NCBI GenBank assembly: GCA_937892945.1
Contig: CALBIL010000030.1
Coordinates: 1 to 64,000, forward strand
DNA: 64,000 bases
Reading direction: 5' to 3'
Source: an uncultured euryarchaeote
Lineage (GTDB): Archaea > Thermoplasmatota > Poseidoniia > Poseidoniales > Poseidoniaceae
The translations under genes and the position numbers were made by a program. The notes under the pieces are model-generated. The model saw only the letters and a program-made list of their open reading frames with translations, was not told the DNA's origin and ran no database searches. Positions within the stretch are counted from its first letter, which is position 1, and every line of letters begins with the position of its first letter. Shown piece by piece: positions 20,947 through 48,336 of this stretch.

Positions 20947-20991
20947 TCGGCGCCACTGAATAGAGTCATCACTTATTGAAAGTGGCGCCGA
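20947..20991 (-). repeat. Inverted copy of the tRNA-Ser 3' end
   Basis: An 11-bp perfect inverted repeat: 20947-20957 is the reverse complement of 20981-20991, separated by 23 nt. The second arm is the 3' acceptor strand, discriminator and CCA of tRNA-Ser, so the trailer could fold back onto the tRNA 3' end. Confidence 0.75.
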
Positions 20992-21068
20992 GAGAGAGAT
21001 TTGAACTCCCGCGTCCAAGGGACAGTGGATTTCGAATCCACCGCAATACCGGGCTATGCGATCTCGGC
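20983..21068 (-). tRNA. tRNA-Ser (anticodon CGA)
   Basis: An 86-nt type II tRNA with encoded CCA. The 7-bp acceptor (GCCGAGA/TCTCGGC) is perfect. The anticodon stem GTGGA/TCCAC encloses TTCGAAA with anticodon CGA. The long variable arm is GTCC-CTT-GGAC, the T-arm is GGGAG-TTCAAAT-CTCTC, and the discriminator base is G as in serine tRNAs. No intron. It decodes UCG. Confidence 0.96.
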
Positions 21069-21091
21069 CGTAGATGTCGGGTTTAGCGCCA

Positions 21092-21103
21092 CCGTCATAA
21101 GCA
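21092..21103. promoter_or_regulatory. Possible shared TATA element between tRNA-Ser and the ubiquitin-like gene
   Basis: The AT-rich element GTCATAAGC lies about 30 nt from the tRNA 5' end on one side and about 25 nt from ATG 21124 on the other. It could serve as a TATA box in both directions. The match to consensus is weak. Confidence 0.25.
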
Positions 21104-21123
21104 TGGCGTTGACTCGTAGTTGT

Positions 21124-21324
21124 ATGGAGATACACCTCAAGGGGCGTGACTATGATGTCAAAGTAGAGTTGGATGGTGAACAGACTGTCAGACAGGCGCT
21201 ACTTGAGGCTGGAATCCACCCCTCAACGGTGATTGTCAGTTACGATGGAACAATCTTGCCACACGCCACTGTACTGTCCCAATCAATTCAACTGTTGGTC
21301 ATCACCATTTCATCCGGTGGTTAA
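21124..21324 (+). CDS. Small ubiquitin-like modifier/sulfur carrier (MoaD/ThiS/SAMP type)
   Basis: A 66-residue beta-grasp protein (MEIHLKGRDYDVKVELDGEQ start) ending in SSGG, the exposed diglycine that is adenylated by E1-like enzymes. In archaea such proteins carry sulfur for tRNA thiolation or molybdopterin, or are conjugated to proteins (SAMPylation). The YDGTILPHATVL segment is typical of this small Ubl class. ATG 21103 would add seven residues. Its stop overlaps that of the convergent nuclease gene. It is not next to an E1 gene, so its partner is unknown. Confidence 0.8.
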   Translation: MEIHLKGRDYDVKVELDGEQTVRQALLEAGIHPSTVIVSYDGTILPHATVLSQSIQLLVITISSGG

Positions 21325-23165
21325 TCTCGTTGTACACGCTCGATAATCTGGAATTTCGTATTCTGTGAGATGTTGCCTCGGACTTCTACAGCCCAAGCGT
21401 CCAATCCGAGATTGGCAACAACAATCGTATCACCGATTTGGGCTAAATCATATTGAGCACCCCAATCATTGGCCCAACCTTCGATTTTCATAGCACCAGT
21501 TGCATCCAAAATCATGGCCCCTTTTCGATGCCATTCCTTCCCATTACGTCCAACTCCACGTTTTTCAAAGCGATAAATAAGGCGTCCAGCAACGTTCCAA
21601 CGTGCACGGAATTCCATCAAGTCAGATCCGACTTCATCATCTGAAGCAGGCACTATGCAAGCATGTGGGTCAACCTTGAGTTCAATTTCACCTTTCCAAT
21701 TTGCAGTTGGAATCACTTTGTCAAGTTTCACCCGATCTCCTTTTGCAATGTTTTGAGGCCACGATGGCTCACCATCTTGATGTTGGTCAACTAAGAGAAT
21801 AACCTTGGCGAAATGATTACCCTGTGAAATCGTAATTCGAGGTCTATGTCCTTCTTTGACTCCCATAACACTGAACACTTCGCCAACAAATGTCATCCGG
21901 GGGTCAAGTTCACCAAGTGGTGTAATATCAATATCAGTAGGGGTGCCTGGCAATCGAACGAGACCACCGACTGGAAGATCATCATCACCTTGCCCACCAG
22001 GGCATACAGACGCCCAGTCACAGCGAGTACATCGGACTTCATCTGGCGCCTCTATAGCGACCCCTCCATCCTTGAAACCTCGAACAGGTGATGGGTTCGG
22101 TGGACAGTCCTCAAGCATCGGCGTTGTTTCTCTAATTTGATGCCACATTGATTCTAGTTCAGATTCCATTCCAGCCATTTCTGAAACGGTTGGACATGCT
22201 ATTGATTTAATTGAATTCGCACCAAGGTACCAGATTTCGAGTGCATCAACCTGTTCCTTCTTTTCGTGAGTAATCCACCACAGCATAGCATACATACGCA
22301 ATTGTTCAACATAATTTCCAGAACGATCGCCCCGACCTACGCTGGCTTTCAAATCAACAATGTTGATTCGACCATCCCAACGATAAATCAAATCATATTC
22401 TCCCTGGAACCAATGTTCGGGATGAATTGCATTCATGGCAAACTTTCCTGCATTTGGGTCAACAAACCAAGGACGGGTTATTTCCCAAGCCTCAATCAAA
22501 GTGACATCTCCTTCCTGTTGTGAAAGTGGATGCTGATTGGAAAGTTTGTATCGGCGTGCATCAGGAGCTGGCCATTCCGGACGGGCCCCTTTACGCCATT
22601 CTTTGAGTCCGGGTCCACCGTTTTGATCGAGACAACGCTGAACTTCCCTCAAATGGAATTCGAGACCATTGACACACATTTTGAGACAATAATCGGGATT
22701 TACTGATTTCCAATCACCAGCCCTTCGTTCATCTTTCTTCCATTCTTCTTTCATGGAATTGAGTGCAAGATGAAGATGAACCTTCAACCGTCCAATAGCC
22801 CATTGGCGGAGACTTTCGAGATTCTGTGGTTGCAAGTTTTTCGGTAAGGCCAACAGACGTTCTGCTGGCCAAGGGTCGAGACTTGAACGGCTCGGCACAC
22901 CAGTCTCATCCAATGGAATAGCCGAAAGAGTATCTGATGAGGCCTTCGAAACCAAAAGGGCTGGAGATTCCATCAACATGCGACAAATCGCTTCTTCAAC
23001 GGCTCTACCGACGAATAATACTGGTATTTGTGGCATCTTAAAACGCCGGACTTTTTCGTAAAACCACAGGCGTGGGCACGCACGATAAGCGTTCACTTGG
23101 CTTGCCGAAAGTCGATTATATGGACCAACAGAATCTTCAGAGGGTGTGACAAGACTTACCGGCAT
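21321..23165 (-). CDS. Iron-sulfur PD-(D/E)XK nuclease with C-terminal OB-like domain, copy 2
   Basis: A 614-residue RecB/Cas4-type nuclease. C30 in RACPRLWFYEKV, followed by VGRAVEEAI, starts the fold. The catalytic block is GEYDLIYRWDGRINIVDLKA (about 255-274), supplying the Asp and the D-x-K. QLRMYAMLW is the QxxxY motif. A cysteine cluster CTRCDWASVC near residue 378 would complete a 4Fe-4S cluster with C30, as in Cas4 and AddB. The last 200 residues are beta-rich and look like OB folds (VAGRLIYRFEKRG...). It is paralogous to the gene immediately upstream, forming a probable pair. It probably acts on DNA ends. No helicase is fused or adjacent. Confidence 0.78.
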   Translation of the reverse strand: MPVSLVTPSEDSVGPYNRLSASQVNAYRACPRLWFYEKVRRFKMPQIPVLFVGRAVEEAICRMLMESPALLVSKASSDTLSAIPLDETGVPSRSSLDPWPAERLLALPKNLQPQNLESLRQWAIGRLKVHLHLALNSMKEEWKKDERRAGDWKSVNPDYCLKMCVNGLEFHLREVQRCLDQNGGPGLKEWRKGARPEWPAPDARRYKLSNQHPLSQQEGDVTLIEAWEITRPWFVDPNAGKFAMNAIHPEHWFQGEYDLIYRWDGRINIVDLKASVGRGDRSGNYVEQLRMYAMLWWITHEKKEQVDALEIWYLGANSIKSIACPTVSEMAGMESELESMWHQIRETTPMLEDCPPNPSPVRGFKDGGVAIEAPDEVRCTRCDWASVCPGGQGDDDLPVGGLVRLPGTPTDIDITPLGELDPRMTFVGEVFSVMGVKEGHRPRITISQGNHFAKVILLVDQHQDGEPSWPQNIAKGDRVKLDKVIPTANWKGEIELKVDPHACIVPASDDEVGSDLMEFRARWNVAGRLIYRFEKRGVGRNGKEWHRKGAMILDATGAMKIEGWANDWGAQYDLAQIGDTIVVANLGLDAWAVEVRGNISQNTKFQIIERVQRD

Positions 23166-23212
23166 ACCTGCGAGTGTTTTGTCGAATGTTCTTGAACCCT
23201 ACTCTCCGAAAT

Positions 23213-24976
23213 TTAATCCTTGACTTGGAGACGTGTTTTTCTTGAGTCGATGCGAAGTTGAGGCAATCCCGCTCTCCAACCCATTTCAGCAGCGAGTAAC
23301 TTGAGCGTCTGACCTGGCCGTAGTGCTTCCATTTGACCCGTAATACTCGAGCCAAAAGAAGCGACCTCAACGATTGAATTCCCATCCCAAAGGTGAACAT
23401 TAAGCATGGTCCATGGTTTTGCATCCAAGCGAATCCCGGACCGCTTGCGAACACTGAGAATCACTCCTTCGACGTTTGCTCTTGTCCGAAGTAAACCGAT
23501 ACGAGTTGTTCGTTCCGAAAGTGAAAGTGATGTCTGTTCGAATTCTTTGGCTGCTTGTGCAACTGGCATTATTCTGGTTCGTGAATCGACGTATAATCGG
23601 GGAGCTCCACGCCAGACACCTGGCAATGCATCCAAAATCACAAGTTCTCCATTCGGTTGATTGTGAAGGAGTGGATAGGAACCGGGTTCACTCTCTTCCA
23701 CTGTGATTTGTGCACCTCCAGCGACAAGCATTGCACCCAAAACGGGTTCTCCAAAGTGATTTGGCAATGGTCCCCAGGCACCGGTAAATTTCCCTTGTAC
23801 ACTTACTCGAACTGGGATTTTTGACAACGGTTCACTTGGAACAGTGAGAGGTATTTCTCTCAATGGAGTGATTTCCGAAAGTAATTCATCGCCAGACCAA
23901 TTCCCTTGTTCATCCCGGGTAAGGCTGCACCAATGGCATCCAGCAGCACTTCCATCGCAGGCTTCAGATGGAAGGACTGGCATACTTGCCGGCCCTGAAC
24001 CCATGTTTTGCATTTCTGTGTTGATTCGTGAAAACTCTGATGTCATTTTTGTGTACTCTGCAGCTTGAGGTGCTTCATACATCACACGATGCGGTCCATT
24101 GAGATACCAACCTTCCAAACCGTCGATGCATTCTCCATCATGAGTTTCATGCCAAAGCCAACCATAGAAGCGAAGTTGGTGTTGAAGAGATTCTGCAAAT
24201 TTAGAACTTGGGTCGCCGGATTTGATATCCACCAGACGAATTCGCCCATCCCATCGAAGCACAAGATCAAGCTCACCCGCAGCCCAACGTTCAGGGTGAA
24301 ACAAGCGCTGAGGTTGATGGACACGAGGGTCTTTGGTCCACGGTCGAGCGATTTCTAACGCTTCATTCCAAGTCACATCGGAACCTTGTGATTGCCATTG
24401 CATGGCTTGCCCTTCAATGGCCCACGAACGCAACTCATAATTCCGAACTTTATCAGGCACAGGGAAATACGGTTCATCACCCCAAGCAGGAGATGGAACA
24501 TCAAATGGGGATTCACCTGCCCTGTATAATTCCAAATATGGCCCGCCGTTTTCATTGTAGCACGATTCAATTTCTTCAAAGAGCAGCACTAAACCATGTT
24601 CTAAACGAGAGATAAAAGAATCGAGTTCGACATCATCCCATGAAGTTCCTGGTTCATACCAAATACCTTCATCCCAAAGAATACGCCCTGCGTCGAGGGC
24701 TTCTTGTGCAGCTTTAGGGAGTAATGTATGCATCCATTTTTTTAAGTCCAGCAGTGTTTCAATGTGCACTGTTGGACGTTGCATCATGACTCCACAAAAT
24801 GCATCTTCAAGTACAATTCCAATCACCTGAGATGGCCGAAGTGGACCTGATATTCCGACTTTCGATCCAAGAAACCACTGACGTTTGCAGCGAAGGAAAG
24901 TCGTCAAACCACTTGCTGAGATTCGTGAGCGAGAACGTCCTAACGGGCCGCCGAGTGGAGGGATTCCTACAGGCAT
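23213..24976 (-). CDS. Iron-sulfur PD-(D/E)XK nuclease with C-terminal OB-like domain, copy 1
   Basis: A 587-residue paralog of the following gene with the same plan: C30 in LRCKRQWFLGSKV, IGIVLEDAF, the catalytic block GELDLVLRWDGRIRLVDIKS (about 232-251), QLRFYGWLW, and a cysteine group CDGSAAGCHWC that would hold the rest of an iron-sulfur cluster. The C-terminal part (about 395-587) is beta-rich and OB-like, including VEGVILSVRKRSG. It begins 15 bp after the ABCE1 stop, so it is probably cotranscribed with ABCE1. Both paralogs keep the nuclease residues, which suggests a two-nuclease complex rather than an active/inactive pair. Confidence 0.78.
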   Translation of the reverse strand: MPVGIPPLGGPLGRSRSRISASGLTTFLRCKRQWFLGSKVGISGPLRPSQVIGIVLEDAFCGVMMQRPTVHIETLLDLKKWMHTLLPKAAQEALDAGRILWDEGIWYEPGTSWDDVELDSFISRLEHGLVLLFEEIESCYNENGGPYLELYRAGESPFDVPSPAWGDEPYFPVPDKVRNYELRSWAIEGQAMQWQSQGSDVTWNEALEIARPWTKDPRVHQPQRLFHPERWAAGELDLVLRWDGRIRLVDIKSGDPSSKFAESLQHQLRFYGWLWHETHDGECIDGLEGWYLNGPHRVMYEAPQAAEYTKMTSEFSRINTEMQNMGSGPASMPVLPSEACDGSAAGCHWCSLTRDEQGNWSGDELLSEITPLREIPLTVPSEPLSKIPVRVSVQGKFTGAWGPLPNHFGEPVLGAMLVAGGAQITVEESEPGSYPLLHNQPNGELVILDALPGVWRGAPRLYVDSRTRIMPVAQAAKEFEQTSLSLSERTTRIGLLRTRANVEGVILSVRKRSGIRLDAKPWTMLNVHLWDGNSIVEVASFGSSITGQMEALRPGQTLKLLAAEMGWRAGLPQLRIDSRKTRLQVKD

Positions 24977-24991
24977 TGTATCATAATCTCC

Positions 24992-26770
24992 TCAATGGTC
25001 AAACGAATAGAAATCTCCAACACCTCGTTGTTCTCTGTCTTTTCGACTTTCCAATTTGTTAATTCTTGGACGCTTCGAATCATGATCTCGACGGAAGGTG
25101 ACATTTACCCCTTCAAGGAAACGATTCATCCCCTCACGTAGTTTGAACGGGCCTTCAGCTTTACCATGGATTCCACCTTCGCCTTCAAAGACGAGAAGTG
25201 AATCACTTACGATATCAATGAAGTAAACATCGTGGTCGATGACGAACGCAGATTTCTCATTGGCTTCCATCGTTCTTCGAATTGCTTTAGCAGCCTCCAT
25301 TCGGGCGTTTGCATCAAGGTGGGCTGATGGCTCATCCAAGAGATAGAGGTCGGCTTCTCTACCAAGGCAAATGGCGATAGCAACTGCTTGACGTTCTCCA
25401 CCGGAGAGTTTCTTGACTCGCTTAGGGAGGAGTTCATCTACACCTAAAGCACGAATCACGTTGACATTGTATTCCCCTACTCGCCACTTTGGACCAATCT
25501 CGCTATCAAGCCACAATTGAACGCTGCAATCCATATCAACATCAATATGCTGAGGTTTGTATGAAATCGTAGCGTTTTCAGTGACCCAACCCTCATCATA
25601 GCCGTGTTCGCCTGCTAAGATTTTGATCATTGTTGATTTCCCTGTGCCGTTTGGGCCTACGACACCTACGACTTCGGAACGATGTACTGCACCTTCACCT
25701 GTTGTGAGTTGGAACTCACCGAGTTTCTTTGAAAGTCCACCCCAAGATACCACTTCAGCACCAAGTTCAGAGACTCGGTCACTGTGGTTAAGGAACTTGA
25801 TTGGTTTGTCTCGGATACGAACATTTTGTTCTGGTAAGAATCCATCGAGATAGGTGTTGATAGCTTGACGAGTTGTACGGGCAGGTGTGAATATTCCAAA
25901 AGCGCCTTTTTTGCCATAGACGATGTGCACCAAGTCGGCGAGTACATCGAGAACTGCAAGGTCGTGCTCAATAACAATCACTCGCTTTGTCTCTGCGAGT
26001 TTTTGGATGATTCTCACAATCCGCATCCGTTCGTGAATATCGAGATACGATGAGGGTTCGTCAAAGAAGTACACATCAACATCACGTAACAAGGTGGCGC
26101 AGATGGCCATGCGTTGTAATTCTCCACCCGAAAGTTGCTGTACCGTACGGTCAAGCAGGTGGTCGATTGCAAGTTCTTTCGTCATCTCTTCAAACATGCC
26201 CCTTTCGTCAACGCGTGTAAGTAAATCGCGAACTGTTCCTTGTATCTTCTTCGGTAAACGGTCCACATTTTGTGGTTTCAAAGCCACTTTAATGTCACCT
26301 TTTTCGACAGAAATGAAAAAGTCTCGTAATTCTCCACGCGGGAGTGATTCGATGATGTCATCCCAGTCCGCATCTTTGTTCAACCAGTCACCAAGGTTTG
26401 GTATCATTCGACCTGAAAGTGCATTGATGGCAGTCGATTTCCCCATGCCATTCGGACCCAGGATTCCGACGACACTTTCCTTCGAAGGAGTCGGTAAGCG
26501 AAACAGACGGAAACCATTCATTGAGTACCGATGAATCATATCGGTTTCGAGTTCACTCGGTAATTGTTCGATAATCAAAGCATCGTGTGGACATTTGTTA
26601 ATGCAAATACCGCAACCAATGCATAGGCTCTCCGAAATGTGAGGTTTGCCAGTTTTATCATCCATGATGATGCATTCTTGCCCGTTTCGAACCGGTGGGC
26701 AGAATGCTTGGCATTCATCGTTGCATTTCTTTGGTTGACAATGATCTTCCTTTAGAACTGCGACTCTCAT
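24992..26770 (-). CDS. abce1: Ribosome recycling ATPase ABCE1
   Basis: A 592-residue ABCE1/Rli1 protein that splits ribosomes after termination. The N-terminal iron-sulfur domain has cysteines 11, 16, 20, 24 and 50, 53, 56, 60 for two 4Fe-4S clusters. NBD1 has Walker A GPNGMGKST (105-113) and LSGGELQRMAI. NBD2 has GPNGTGKST and LSGGERQAVAI, with the linker hinge between. The ending is basic. It lies downstream of L10e and upstream of the paired nucleases. Confidence 0.96.
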   Translation of the reverse strand: MRVAVLKEDHCQPKKCNDECQAFCPPVRNGQECIIMDDKTGKPHISESLCIGCGICINKCPHDALIIEQLPSELETDMIHRYSMNGFRLFRLPTPSKESVVGILGPNGMGKSTAINALSGRMIPNLGDWLNKDADWDDIIESLPRGELRDFFISVEKGDIKVALKPQNVDRLPKKIQGTVRDLLTRVDERGMFEEMTKELAIDHLLDRTVQQLSGGELQRMAICATLLRDVDVYFFDEPSSYLDIHERMRIVRIIQKLAETKRVIVIEHDLAVLDVLADLVHIVYGKKGAFGIFTPARTTRQAINTYLDGFLPEQNVRIRDKPIKFLNHSDRVSELGAEVVSWGGLSKKLGEFQLTTGEGAVHRSEVVGVVGPNGTGKSTMIKILAGEHGYDEGWVTENATISYKPQHIDVDMDCSVQLWLDSEIGPKWRVGEYNVNVIRALGVDELLPKRVKKLSGGERQAVAIAICLGREADLYLLDEPSAHLDANARMEAAKAIRRTMEANEKSAFVIDHDVYFIDIVSDSLLVFEGEGGIHGKAEGPFKLREGMNRFLEGVNVTFRRDHDSKRPRINKLESRKDREQRGVGDFYSFDH

Positions 26771-26885: not shown

Positions 26886-27425
26886 TCAAATGAGACCCTT
26901 GAGGTGCTCGTGACCTTGAATCAAGCGCACAGTACATGGAGTTGGGAACTTCATAGTTGCCTTACGAAGTGCATCTCGTGCAGTGAGATAATGCTCAGGA
27001 TTGACTTGCAAAGAAATGACACGTTGTCCACGCTTAACACGAGCGGCTGTTCCGACGTTCTTTCCAAAAGCACAACGCATTCCTTGAGAAACACGGTCAG
27101 CACCTGCACCAGTTGCTTGCTTGTTTTCACGAAGAATGTGGTGAGGGAAGGTGTGAACACGAAGAGCATAGCCTTGAGTTCCAGCAATCTTTCGGATTGT
27201 TGAGTTTGAAATAACACGAGCTGCTTCAAGAGCAGTATGACGAATTTGACAGTTGTTGTCAGCACGGAGTTCTATGATGACTTTGAACTGTCCCGTTTCA
27301 GCAGCAACACGGTTTCCAGCGTGGAATGACGTGATTCTGTTGTTCGGAACACCGCCGATGTACTTACGTCGAGTGTAGGCAGGGCCCTTAAGGCGGCGAT
27401 ACATAGATGCTGGTTTACGTGCCAT
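26886..27425 (-). CDS. rpl10e: Ribosomal protein L10e (uL16)
   Basis: A 179-residue large-subunit protein starting MARKPASMYRRLKGPAYTRR, with the FHAGN, AARVISNS and GADRVSQGMRCAFGK segments of archaeal L10e. It sits near the peptidyl-transferase centre. The frame is open to 27470, but ATG 27425 matches the family start. Confidence 0.95.
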   Translation of the reverse strand: MARKPASMYRRLKGPAYTRRKYIGGVPNNRITSFHAGNRVAAETGQFKVIIELRADNNCQIRHTALEAARVISNSTIRKIAGTQGYALRVHTFPHHILRENKQATGAGADRVSQGMRCAFGKNVGTAARVKRGQRVISLQVNPEHYLTARDALRKATMKFPTPCTVRLIQGHEHLKGLI

Positions 27426-27573
27426 GATACTCTCTCCAAGCACTCCTGCGACTAATATTCCCTTTATCATCTCTCCGCTTCAAGCCTTGGCGAGAGAAAC
27501 AGGTATCGGATAAATGAATCTCGGCTCTTTGTTCAATAAAAGGTTTCATGTGCTCGTTTCACATCCTGCAAGC

Positions 27574-45563: not shown

Positions 45564-46502
45564 TCACGCCACGATTCTAAACCAACCAAATCTTGGTTCG
45601 TGAAGAGTTCCTTCATTTGAAAGTTCATCGAGTTTTTCTTCTGCGAGTGTTCGATCAAAACCACGTGCAACTGTATTGGTGAGCACTGTCTCAAAATCAA
45701 CACCATCACCTTGGTCAAGTTGTTCGATGATTGATACGATTGTGTCCTTCACTTCGGTTTCGCCACCTGCGGCAGCATCCCCGCCATCCTCGTCTCCATC
45801 AGCACTTGGAACAGGTGCCGCAACAGGCTGACTGGCAGCCTCCATGCGACCTTCAGCAATATCCAAAGCTTGCATGATATTGAGTGTGTAATTTTCAATC
45901 TCAATGTCTCCGTAATGATTACGAGCAACAAGAAGTCCATCGATCATATGTTCTGGAATACCTGCAGCAACCAAGCCTTCTCGAGATGGTTCAGCAGATA
46001 ATGAATCTGTGAAATGCTTCATTCGTTGAAGTGTGTCCTCACATGTCCGAGTCAACCAAAGAGCATACTGTTGTGCATCAATTTCACAGGCTTCTTCGGG
46101 ACGAAGTGAGGTATAAATCGCTCCTTCGTCGGTTTGATACCATTTTGATTTGGCAACCATGAGAAGAAGGACTGGCTCACCTGCTTCGATTTTGTTCGAC
46201 AAAGTCAAGGTAAGTTCACGCATCGATTCACTTGCATAATCTCCAACAGAGAAGTAATGAACACCTGACGGGTCACGCATCTGTCCTTGATAGAGCGATG
46301 AACCATTGGAAGTTTCTCGAACCTCGAGTCGTTCCAAAAGCCCTGCTACGACGACTCGGTTGACTTTTGCACCAAGTTTCGTAATTACAAAGGAAGGATC
46401 GTATTCGCCCGAGCCTTTCTCATTGAGTGTAGCCTCACTAAATTCAGAGGCAAGTATGTGCCAAGCCGGTTGACGCTTTGCCCGTGTAGTTCCAGCTTGC
46501 AT
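45564..46502 (-). CDS. RPA-associated protein, COG3390 type
   Basis: A 312-residue partner of archaeal RPA. The N-terminal OB-fold region (ITKLGAKVNRVVVAGLLERLE) is followed by a helical segment, an acidic low-complexity stretch (DGDEDGGDAAAGG) and a C-terminal winged-helix-like domain (about 245-312). Its ATG overlaps the RPA stop by one base (TAATG), so translation is coupled. In haloarchaea such pairs act together in single-strand DNA binding. Confidence 0.8.
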   Translation of the reverse strand: MQAGTTRAKRQPAWHILASEFSEATLNEKGSGEYDPSFVITKLGAKVNRVVVAGLLERLEVRETSNGSSLYQGQMRDPSGVHYFSVGDYASESMRELTLTLSNKIEAGEPVLLLMVAKSKWYQTDEGAIYTSLRPEEACEIDAQQYALWLTRTCEDTLQRMKHFTDSLSAEPSREGLVAAGIPEHMIDGLLVARNHYGDIEIENYTLNIMQALDIAEGRMEAASQPVAAPVPSADGDEDGGDAAAGGETEVKDTIVSIIEQLDQGDGVDFETVLTNTVARGFDRTLAEEKLDELSNEGTLHEPRFGWFRIVA

Positions 46503-48199
46503 TAAGCAACCCTCCATTGAGCACGTATTTCAGTCGCCCGTAAACCGGCATCTTCCTCGACCATGGATGCTCCATCTGCAAGTAGCATGGCACCTTGTTC
46601 GTCGACGATACTACGGCCTGAAGCGTTCATTTTACGTCCGAGCATCTTTCCACGCAAGGATTGAACGAAAGCAACTTGTCCAACATCATCAATCGCACCT
46701 TGAAGTTCCGGTTCGGTCATTCCAAGAAGGCTCAATGTTGCCTCTTTGTTGGTCAACACGGATACGCTGGAAAGACCATTATCAATTGCTAAACGCAATC
46801 TCACGTCACTGTTGCCATCATTTGGACCATGGTCAGCACACACGCCTTCCCGGAGTACTCGTCGGCATTCCGTGCAACGTTGAATAAAACCAGAATCTTC
46901 TCGGACACTGACCACAATGGCACTGGTCGAGATTCCTACTCGACTTGCACCTGTAGAGAGTTCATGAAGAGCAACCTCAACAGTATGGTTTTTCAAATCC
47001 AATTCGCTGTCCCAAGGTGGGGCATCGAGTATTTCGACTTGGTCCGCATTATCAACAGTAATATCTGGTATTCCTTGCCAAGCACGAACTCGTACGCCTT
47101 TGAGGCGTACTGTCAACGGCAATTGGTCTTCAGTAATAGGAAGTTCATTCCATGCACTCATACGGCAACGACCGGTTGGATCGGCGATTTGACCAGACCA
47201 GAGGAAGCGTTCTTCACCATCCTTGGTAAACGTGCGTTTTGCCCATTCAGTGATCTGAACGATTGCATCGACATCTTTGGCTCCATCTCGAAGTTCTGAG
47301 AGAGTGAGCACTGTTTGTTCCGAGAGTGCATCAACATCAGCAAAATTCTTGTCGTGATAAACTTCGATTTTGGTTGTTCGTCCGAAATTGAGTTCAGGAG
47401 TATCTCTGAACGTTCGGACTTGTGCACCTTCAATTTTGAGAAGCGTTCCTACTTCGTGACCAAGTGGTTCCCATGAAAGGAAGCCAATCGTACCTGTTTC
47501 ATCAGCCAAACGGCCCCGTATGATATCAATCGAGCCGGAACCATCCTTACGGTGAATCTGGTCTGCGCGTGTGGTAAGAATTCGTCCAACAACACAGACA
47601 TAGCCATCAGAGGGCAAAGTCGAGATGTCTTGTGGCTCGCCTGGTGCCACTACAGGACCAGTACCTTCACGAATCACAGCGATACGTGTCGATTGATTGA
47701 TGTTAAGAGACATCTTTCCTTGGTATTCGTTGACCGATGCACCTTCAATTCGAACAACAGATCCGGGGGTAATGTTGGAGTTTGGACCCCAGTCTTTGAA
47801 CTCCCAACGAGTTTTCTCACCATTTTCTTCCCAAGGGTTATCTTCGAGAAGACCGAAAGCGATTTGCTTTTCTTCACCTCGAATCGTTTGGTTACGAATG
47901 TTATGGGAAATAATTTCAACTTCGATTTCGATTTCTCGGTCATCGCCTTTCAGTTCGCTTAATCGGCTTACTTTACGGGTTGACTTTGGTGCCGCTGAAG
48001 ATGAAGTGCCCGGAGTGTTTGCGGACGGCGTGGGTGTCGTTTCACCTTTGAAGCGTCGAAGAATCGAACGCATAGCATCTTGAGGTGGAATGAAAAATTC
48101 GGTTTCATATTTTGCAAAAGCTGCAGAAACGGCTTCAGGGTCAGCATCAGGGCATTCGGCAAGAATCGACTTGACGTGGGTTTCGTATTTTTCAGACAT
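46502..48199 (-). CDS. rpa: Replication protein A, multi-OB single-strand DNA-binding protein
   Basis: A 565-residue RPA with a helical N-terminal segment (1-50), a Pro/Ser/Thr-rich linker, three or more OB folds in series (about 75-190, 195-300 and 310-410), a zinc finger C-x2-C...C-x2-HG (CTECRRVLREGVCADHG, about 440-456) and a further C-terminal OB-like domain. It coats single-stranded DNA during replication and repair. ATG 48199 has GGAGGT at good spacing; the frame stays open to 48331 but runs through the promoter. Confidence 0.9.
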   Translation of the reverse strand: MSEKYETHVKSILAECPDADPEAVSAAFAKYETEFFIPPQDAMRSILRRFKGETTPTPSANTPGTSSSAAPKSTRKVSRLSELKGDDREIEIEVEIISHNIRNQTIRGEEKQIAFGLLEDNPWEENGEKTRWEFKDWGPNSNITPGSVVRIEGASVNEYQGKMSLNINQSTRIAVIREGTGPVVAPGEPQDISTLPSDGYVCVVGRILTTRADQIHRKDGSGSIDIIRGRLADETGTIGFLSWEPLGHEVGTLLKIEGAQVRTFRDTPELNFGRTTKIEVYHDKNFADVDALSEQTVLTLSELRDGAKDVDAIVQITEWAKRTFTKDGEERFLWSGQIADPTGRCRMSAWNELPITEDQLPLTVRLKGVRVRAWQGIPDITVDNADQVEILDAPPWDSELDLKNHTVEVALHELSTGASRVGISTSAIVVSVREDSGFIQRCTECRRVLREGVCADHGPNDGNSDVRLRLAIDNGLSSVSVLTNKEATLSLLGMTEPELQGAIDDVGQVAFVQSLRGKMLGRKMNASGRSIVDEQGAMLLADGASMVEEDAGLRATEIRAQWRVA

Positions 48200-48336
48200 T
48201 GCAATGACCTCCGCCAGGCGTGTTCGTTCGGGGCCTGTACGGAGAACAGGCTGCGGGCTTTCGTGCGGGTTGGTTGAGACTGTACACTCCCTTGACCTCC
48301 ATGGATAACTACAGGGGAGACGACAGGCCATAAAGA
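48192..48336 (-). promoter_or_regulatory. RPA promoter and leaderless upstream ORF overlapping the RPA start
   Basis: A TATA-like TCTTTATGG (48328-48336) sits about 29 nt before an ATG at 48302, the spacing for a leaderless transcript. That ATG opens a 36-codon ORF (MEVKGVYSLNQPARKPAAC onward) that ends in a TGA at 48192-48194, inside the RPA start (ATGTCTGA overlap). Translation of this ORF would deliver ribosomes to the RPA start. Confidence 0.4.

Follow-up and report, generated by a model that had tools for sequence, protein, structure and literature searches.

The window analysed here, a 64,000-nucleotide stretch of DNA, lies on contig C30 of the 2.03-Mb draft genome (100 contigs, completeness 93.87%) of an uncultured euryarchaeote of the family Poseidoniaceae, and contains two adjacent genes, A and B. 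On balance, we favour the reading that they encode two paralogous DNA nucleases which lack a helicase, belong to the iron-sulfur (Fe-S) branch of the PD-(D/E)XK superfamily (Cas4/AddB/AdnA/Dna2/EXO5 type) and each have a paired RPA-type OB tail, and which would trim DNA ends or flaps in repair or replication. The order to which the genome belongs, the Poseidoniales (Marine Group II), is described as abundant in the ocean and uncultured. A previous sequence-only reading of the window had proposed that A and B form an undescribed two-nuclease complex sharing an operon with ABCE1, and both open reading frames were indeed found where it had placed them, with ABCE1 upstream on the same strand. The two genes are:

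21321..23165, minus strand: gene A, an open reading frame of 614 residues matching PDDEXK_1, with a predicted Fe-S-type PD-(D/E)XK nuclease (about residues 13-392) and two RPA-like OB folds (about 405-612).
23213..24976, minus strand: gene B, paralogue of A, an open reading frame of 587 residues matching PDDEXK_1, with a predicted PD-(D/E)XK nuclease (about 14-351), two RPA-like OB folds (about 378-587) and a fourth cluster-type cysteine placed upstream (C340).

The nuclease half of both proteins is assigned to the PD-(D/E)XK superfamily from profile matches and predicted models. PDDEXK_1 (PF12705) scores 56.4 bits for A and 46 bits for B against a curated cut-off of 22. Residues were counted in two alignments, the rows of which come from selected loci whose frames are complete or almost so (truncated genes and stop-interrupted frames were dropped before counting): a 69-row alignment (55 A and 14 B), used for A, and a 57-row alignment, of which 43 rows are B, used for B. 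All 69 members of the former match PDDEXK_1 (E up to 0.1). The catalytic residues E57, D258, D271, K273, Q288 and Y292 are invariant in 55/55 A rows, as are E57, D237, D250, K252, Q267 and Y271 in 43/43 B rows, so that the Cys30, the GE(Y/L)D...D-x-K block and the QxxxY motif announced for both paralogues are confirmed, together with the retention of the catalytic residues in each. No helicase family is listed for A or B in the Pfam scan, and the UvrD-type helicase of AddAB, RecB and AdnAB is found neither in them nor in a neighbouring partner gene. Membership of the Cas4 family is not reached either, TIGR00372 giving 22 bits for A against a cut-off of 65 and no listed match for B; within the 69-row alignment, the Cas4 model PF01930 is matched (E up to 0.1) by a single row, and a Cas4 model is matched weakly by 46. 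The PHROGs matches of A and B are weak and fall in exonuclease families, and a sequence search of solved structures gave nothing for B and, for A, a single row at chance level (E 0.89).

The AlphaFold2 models of A (predicted local distance difference test, pLDDT, 92.6; predicted template modelling score, pTM, 0.88) and of B (pLDDT 91.6, pTM 0.88) are confident; they are single chains and are silent on an A-B dimer. They were compared with solved structures by VIA-align over the best 1000 chains from Foldseek, 50 rows being listed for each model. Among the matches listed for the nuclease part of A, the closest is ACE1 (9iab; Z 15.3, 238 residues aligned, 3.5 Å), followed by AdnA (Z 14.0), AddB (Z 13.2) and Dna2 (Z 10.9), while those listed for B include AdnA (Z 13.6), Dna2 (Z 13.4), ACE1 (Z 12.9), Cas4 (Z 10.9) and AddB (Z 10.8). 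As for the tails, archaeal RPA OB domains were recovered for A (3dm3 and 8oej, Z 12.2) and for B (8oej, Z 11.2). The tail rows, whether RPA or tRNA-synthetase, align 80-106 residues, which is about one OB fold each. The top chains of Foldseek itself were tandem OB folds of RPA and HIN-200 proteins, with query-length template modelling scores that are low (0.10-0.16 in the rows shown).

The tail is the part of the two proteins that gives the favoured reading its link to RPA. What had been described as about 200 residues of OB-like sequence proves, by profile comparison, models and structure matches, to be two OB folds. An OB-fold family is matched by 35 of the 69 rows of the A alignment, and PRK07218, a single-stranded DNA-binding model among the NCBIfam RPA/ssDNA-binding models, by 32 of the 69; its scores for A and B themselves (11.9 and 10.9 bits, cut-off 447) indicate kinship with part of RPA rather than membership. 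In addition, the A profile finds weak matches in 129 genomes of the phylum sample outside the order (250 minus 121), the best of them at 3.7e-11 and in the tail. Twelve of these genomes, picked among those with low E-values, were re-queried, and in 12/12 the match was an open reading frame of 417-561 residues falling within A-profile positions 414-609, that is, in the tail; among these proteins, the 10 that were scanned all match PRK07218, over most or nearly the whole of the model's length, at 355-433 bits (cut-off 447). In profile-profile comparison with the 12 RPA-like proteins, the tail of A reaches 98.6% over 188 columns and that of B 93.0% over 124, the nuclease halves giving 0.3% (A) and 0.6% (B). 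Since the tail is akin to RPA, which binds single-stranded DNA, the "DNA or RNA" substrate of the sequence-only reading can be narrowed towards DNA.

In the mechanism that we propose, the tail would bind single-stranded DNA at a gap or flap or where an end has been resected, or alternatively would pair with or displace RPA; it would thread the strand into the channel of the nuclease, with the Fe-S region bracing the channel mouth, and cleavage would follow at the metal site (A: D258/D271/K273; B: D237/D250/K252). The job would be the trimming of ends or flaps in repair or replication, akin to that of Dna2 and EXO5 under RPA control. In the parts of the two sources available to us, Dna2 offers a precedent for an RPA-linked nuclease (PMC4716839) and EXO5 that of a human Fe-S exonuclease acting on single-stranded DNA and directed by RPA (PMC8710748).

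Several observations weigh against this reading. Aspartyl- and asparaginyl-tRNA synthetase OB domains come close behind RPA in the structure comparison (Z 11.9 for the tail of A; Z 10.1, to a tRNA-synthetase, for that of B), and OB folds occur in RNA-binding proteins too. The E-values of pairwise profile comparisons apply to a single comparison, the 12 RPA-like proteins do not form an independent sample since they were found with the A profile, and the kinship of the B tail to RPA is weaker than that of the A tail. Mean conservation in the tail against the nuclease half is 0.44 versus 0.59 in A, and 0.61 versus 0.60 in B. Besides, the OB domain of Dna2 in isolation did not bind DNA in the portion of the source seen (PMC4716839), and the tail of A and B could therefore be a protein-contact module. 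Finally, the genomic company of the two genes is translational (ABCE1, uL16, aIF2-alpha), repair genes being absent from it.

In order to follow A and B across genomes, 389 genomes of the phylum were searched with the A and B profiles, 126 of them from the order: 71 from the window's own family and 55 from the other sampled family, which we take to be Thalassarchaeaceae (Marine Group IIb) and call the sister family. A was scored present only when placed apart from B; in genome G207, A is truncated at a contig end and was scored present. At least one of the two genes occurs in 121/126 genomes of the order, with both in 74 (63 of the window's family, 11 of the sister family), A alone in 40 (one and 39), B alone in seven (six and one) and neither in five. 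The A-only state is common to all matched sister-family genomes of genera g2, g3, g4, g6, g8, g10 and g20. Outside the order, none of the eight genomes of a third family of the class matches either profile, and the B-profile matches, in 121 genomes, all lie within the order. In a scan of genome contigs, the best 80 of 260 relatives are labelled Poseidoniales, Poseidoniaceae, Poseidonia or simply Euryarchaeota, which does not prove that the family is confined to the order. It should also be kept in mind that, the genomes being drafts, the absence of A or B from one of them is weak evidence.

These counts bear on whether A and B would form a dedicated heterodimeric nuclease, with one subunit per strand or with a catalytic and a structural subunit, as in AddAB and AdnAB. 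Adjacency speaks for such an arrangement: a tblastn survey of 117 loci (some genomes being counted twice) shows both genes in 96, where they are always neighbours and co-directional, with gaps between matches of 29-116 nucleotides apart from 290 in L211 and 834 in L157, and the joint presence in 74/126 genomes with catalytic residues kept in both points the same way. However, A stands alone in 40/126 genomes and B in 7/126, two of these being contig-end cases (G235, the A-alone genome of the window's family, and G366, whose contig stops where A is expected), which makes the heterodimer rather unlikely. The loci themselves confirm the point: one gene is unpaired in 13 A-only and six B-only genomes whose loci were read, a situation that the sequence-only reading had named as contrary to its complex, and in the six B-only loci (of seven) A was not found downstream. 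The co-occurrence table and the locus reading thus both reject an obligate pair, and what stands of the proposed complex is two paralogous nucleases of Fe-S type with OB tails, which may have a looser partnership in genomes that carry both. Since each gene can be lost, the roles of the favoured end-trimming nucleases would overlap or be linked through a pathway, without the two forming one obligate complex.

In a maximum-likelihood tree of 98 rows, rooted at the midpoint and with long branches that are unsure, a branch with 100% support in the Shimodaira-Hasegawa-like approximate likelihood ratio test (SH-aLRT) separates A from B, which supports the earlier view of them as duplicates. Because both families occur on each side of this branch, the simplest account, as judged from these sequences, is one A/B duplication predating the split of the two families; B would have been lost in the main clade of the sister family and A repeatedly in the window's family. 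Three B rows of the window's family (L146, L147 and L157) group with sister-family B at 89%, and the A row of L157 groups with three sister-family A rows at 81%.

Nucleases of the Cas4, AddB and Dna2 kind carry their Fe-S cysteines in the order of one N-terminal cysteine and then C-x2-C-x5-C. The cluster itself is shared by AddB and Dna2 (PMC4716839, as far as seen). The cysteines of A, C30 and C379-x2-C382-x5-C388, present in 55/55 rows, reproduce this pattern completely, so that the downstream cysteine cluster claimed for both proteins holds for A. It does not hold for the window's B, in which the order is C340-x6-C347-x2-C350 without any cysteine further downstream, the fourth cysteine lying upstream of the pair. 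This rearrangement, which comes in addition to what had been noticed before, is widespread in the window's family: 34/36 of its B rows combine C30 with a cysteine that precedes the CxxC pair and have none after the pair, the spacing being 4-6 residues in 33 of the 34 (the window's B included) and a single residue in L157. The canonical four-cysteine order is present in 0/36 of these rows versus 7/7 B rows of the sister family. In genus g18 (L146 and L147), position 30 of B is glycine and all cluster cysteines are missing, yet the catalytic residues are kept. A separate cysteine of the helical region, C178 in A and C139 in B (one alignment column), is invariant in all 69 and 57 rows of the two alignments, the two cluster-free rows of the 57 included.

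It is possible, though doubtful, that B of the window's family binds an Fe-S cluster through a cysteine moved from downstream to upstream of the CxxC pair, that one genus has become cluster-free, and that A and B make up a Poseidoniales-specific end-processing system with built-in RPA, recognising RPA-coated DNA by RPA mimicry. If so, a single gene would offer a natural series of canonical, rewired and cluster-free versions with the active site kept, and the role of the cluster, structural or functional, would be testable by natural variation since the active site is unchanged across them.

Downstream of the cluster-free B of genus g18, in which A is missing, a 279-residue open reading frame stands directly after B, in the place of A (L146:6619-7458 and L147:6556-7395); its L146 product is an RNase_T/DEDD-type exonuclease (71 bits).

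On the minus strand of the window the order is uL16, ABCE1, B and A, with 15 nucleotides between the ABCE1 and B frames and 47 between B and A. The features around the two genes, and elsewhere in the window, are:

24992..26770, minus strand: ABCE1, the RLI-type ribosome-recycling ATPase (ABC_tran, Fer4_RLI and Fer4 matches).
26886..27470, minus strand: ribosomal protein L16/L10e (uL16; PF00252, 98.4 bits), flanking gene upstream of ABCE1.
21001..21324, plus strand: SAMP2-like small ubiquitin-like open reading frame ending in GG (PF21965, 14.2 bits, cut-off 27), flanking gene.
20983-21068, minus strand: tRNA-Ser.
46502..48331, minus strand: open reading frame of the genome's RPA-like protein, related to the A and B tails (PRK07218, 269 bits, cut-off 447), start codon not settled, outside the locus.
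9-134: a 42-nucleotide repeat in three contiguous copies.

The SAMP2-like frame converges on the end of A and is found beside A in several relatives; its true start is probably later than 21001, since the tRNA-Ser overlaps the listed one. uL16 is likewise near the locus in several relatives of the window's family. Of the 117 loci, 94 show B together with ABCE1, always as neighbours, ABCE1 lying directly upstream of B with a gap between matches of 0-172 nucleotides and one exception of 416; in the remaining eight B-bearing loci the sequence stops at B or ABCE1 or within one of them, owing to the limit of the stretch or of the contig. Among the 15 loci with A and without B, L202 and L248 start right at the end of a contig, and the other 13 show neither B nor ABCE1 in the 2.0-7.6 kilobases upstream of A. 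The linkage therefore belongs to B and not to the pair: the string shared with ABCE1 is real in the window, but a link of A itself to ABCE1 is rejected. The idea that a shortened B lies upstream of A in A-only genomes is also rejected: in each of the six loci scanned (of the 13), that gene encodes a radical SAM protein.

This neighbourhood could suggest that A and B are ABCE1-linked RNA nucleases, degrading mRNA or rRNA after ribosome splitting or at stalled translation, all the more as B follows ABCE1 directly in 94/94 loci, uL16 and aIF2-alpha are near, and OB folds can bind RNA. Nevertheless, the sequence relatives of the tail are RPA and single-stranded DNA-binding proteins, the structural neighbours listed for the nuclease part are DNA enzymes, A without B sits away from ABCE1 in 13/13 loci with upstream room, and gene order is conserved across much of the region in any case, so that we consider this reading improbable.

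A role in defence is, in our view, very improbable. A and B would in that case degrade invading single-stranded DNA as Cas4-like nucleases or as relatives of ACE1, the Cas4-family, Argonaute-associated protein that is the top structural match of A among those listed. Against this stand the presence of at least one of the two genes in 121/126 genomes of the order and their conserved housekeeping neighbourhood, and also the lack of a CRISPR-like array in the window (direct repeats of at least 23 nucleotides within 120), of any Cas1 match in the genome and of any relative among viral contigs, which were scanned twice. The Cas1 result is a soft zero, the same scan having missed a protein on contig C76 that passes the PF01930 cut-off in hmmscan. 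A part as Cas4 of a CRISPR system is rejected on the array and Cas1 results and on the sub-cut-off Cas4 scores; a viral origin is rejected as well, the pattern matches of the two scans, in 17 and 27 stretches, encoding no relative. The remark that CRISPR, Cas1, AddA and RecB are lacking nearby is thus borne out for array and Cas1, but an AddA/AddB-like pair is encoded elsewhere: the three PF00580 matches of the genome fall in one frame on contig C98, where an AddB-like gene (1252 residues) and an AddA-like gene (1649 residues) overlap by 4 nucleotides (L262:3590-12294). No further PDDEXK_1 match is found on the window's contig; the genome has, besides the Cas4-like protein on C76, a further PDDEXK_1 protein on C6, and A and B are therefore not its only candidates for end processing.

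The pair is real, conserved and somewhat unusual, its enzyme class being known and its domain arrangement new as far as the searches reach. The literature search returned no title describing a fusion of a nuclease with an RPA-like tail, in a range that left subscription journals mostly outside and so gives no proof of novelty, and no paper on end-processing enzymes of the Poseidoniales. In the part of PMC2643942 available to us, "ABC" and "RNase L inhibitor" are absent. A phylogenomic study of Cas4 (PMC5704561) reports, in the text seen, UvrD fusions and associations with COG1205 helicases without describing an RPA-like tail, and its main text does not contain "OB-fold" or "Marine Group".

Compared with Cas4, solo-Cas4, pfam12705 proteins and ACE1, with which A shares a weak TIGR00372 match and its top structural match, A and B are about three times longer, have a tail of their own and adjoin no cas genes. 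With AddB, AdnA and Dna2 they have in common the PD-(D/E)XK core, the motif-IV glutamine, the one N-terminal and three C-terminal cysteines of A and Z-scores of 10-14, but they are helicase-free, bear an RPA-like OB tail and, for B of the window's family, place the fourth cysteine upstream of CxxC. EXO5, which is absent from the 50 structure rows listed for either model (MGME1 being listed for B, Z 9.9), is likewise a helicase-less Fe-S nuclease linked to RPA (PMC8710748, in the part available), with one nuclease domain that meets RPA in trans, whereas A and B have RPA-type folds in cis. Archaeal RPA (PRK07218), for its part, has two successive OB folds homologous to the tail of A and B and lacks the nuclease, and the genome retains its separate RPA-like frame. 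The hand-over between RPA and nuclease, known from Dna2 (PMC4716839) and EXO5 (PMC8710748) in the parts of these sources seen, would with a single-stranded DNA-binding module and an Fe-S nuclease in one chain become the property of a single protein, which could be purified and dissected.

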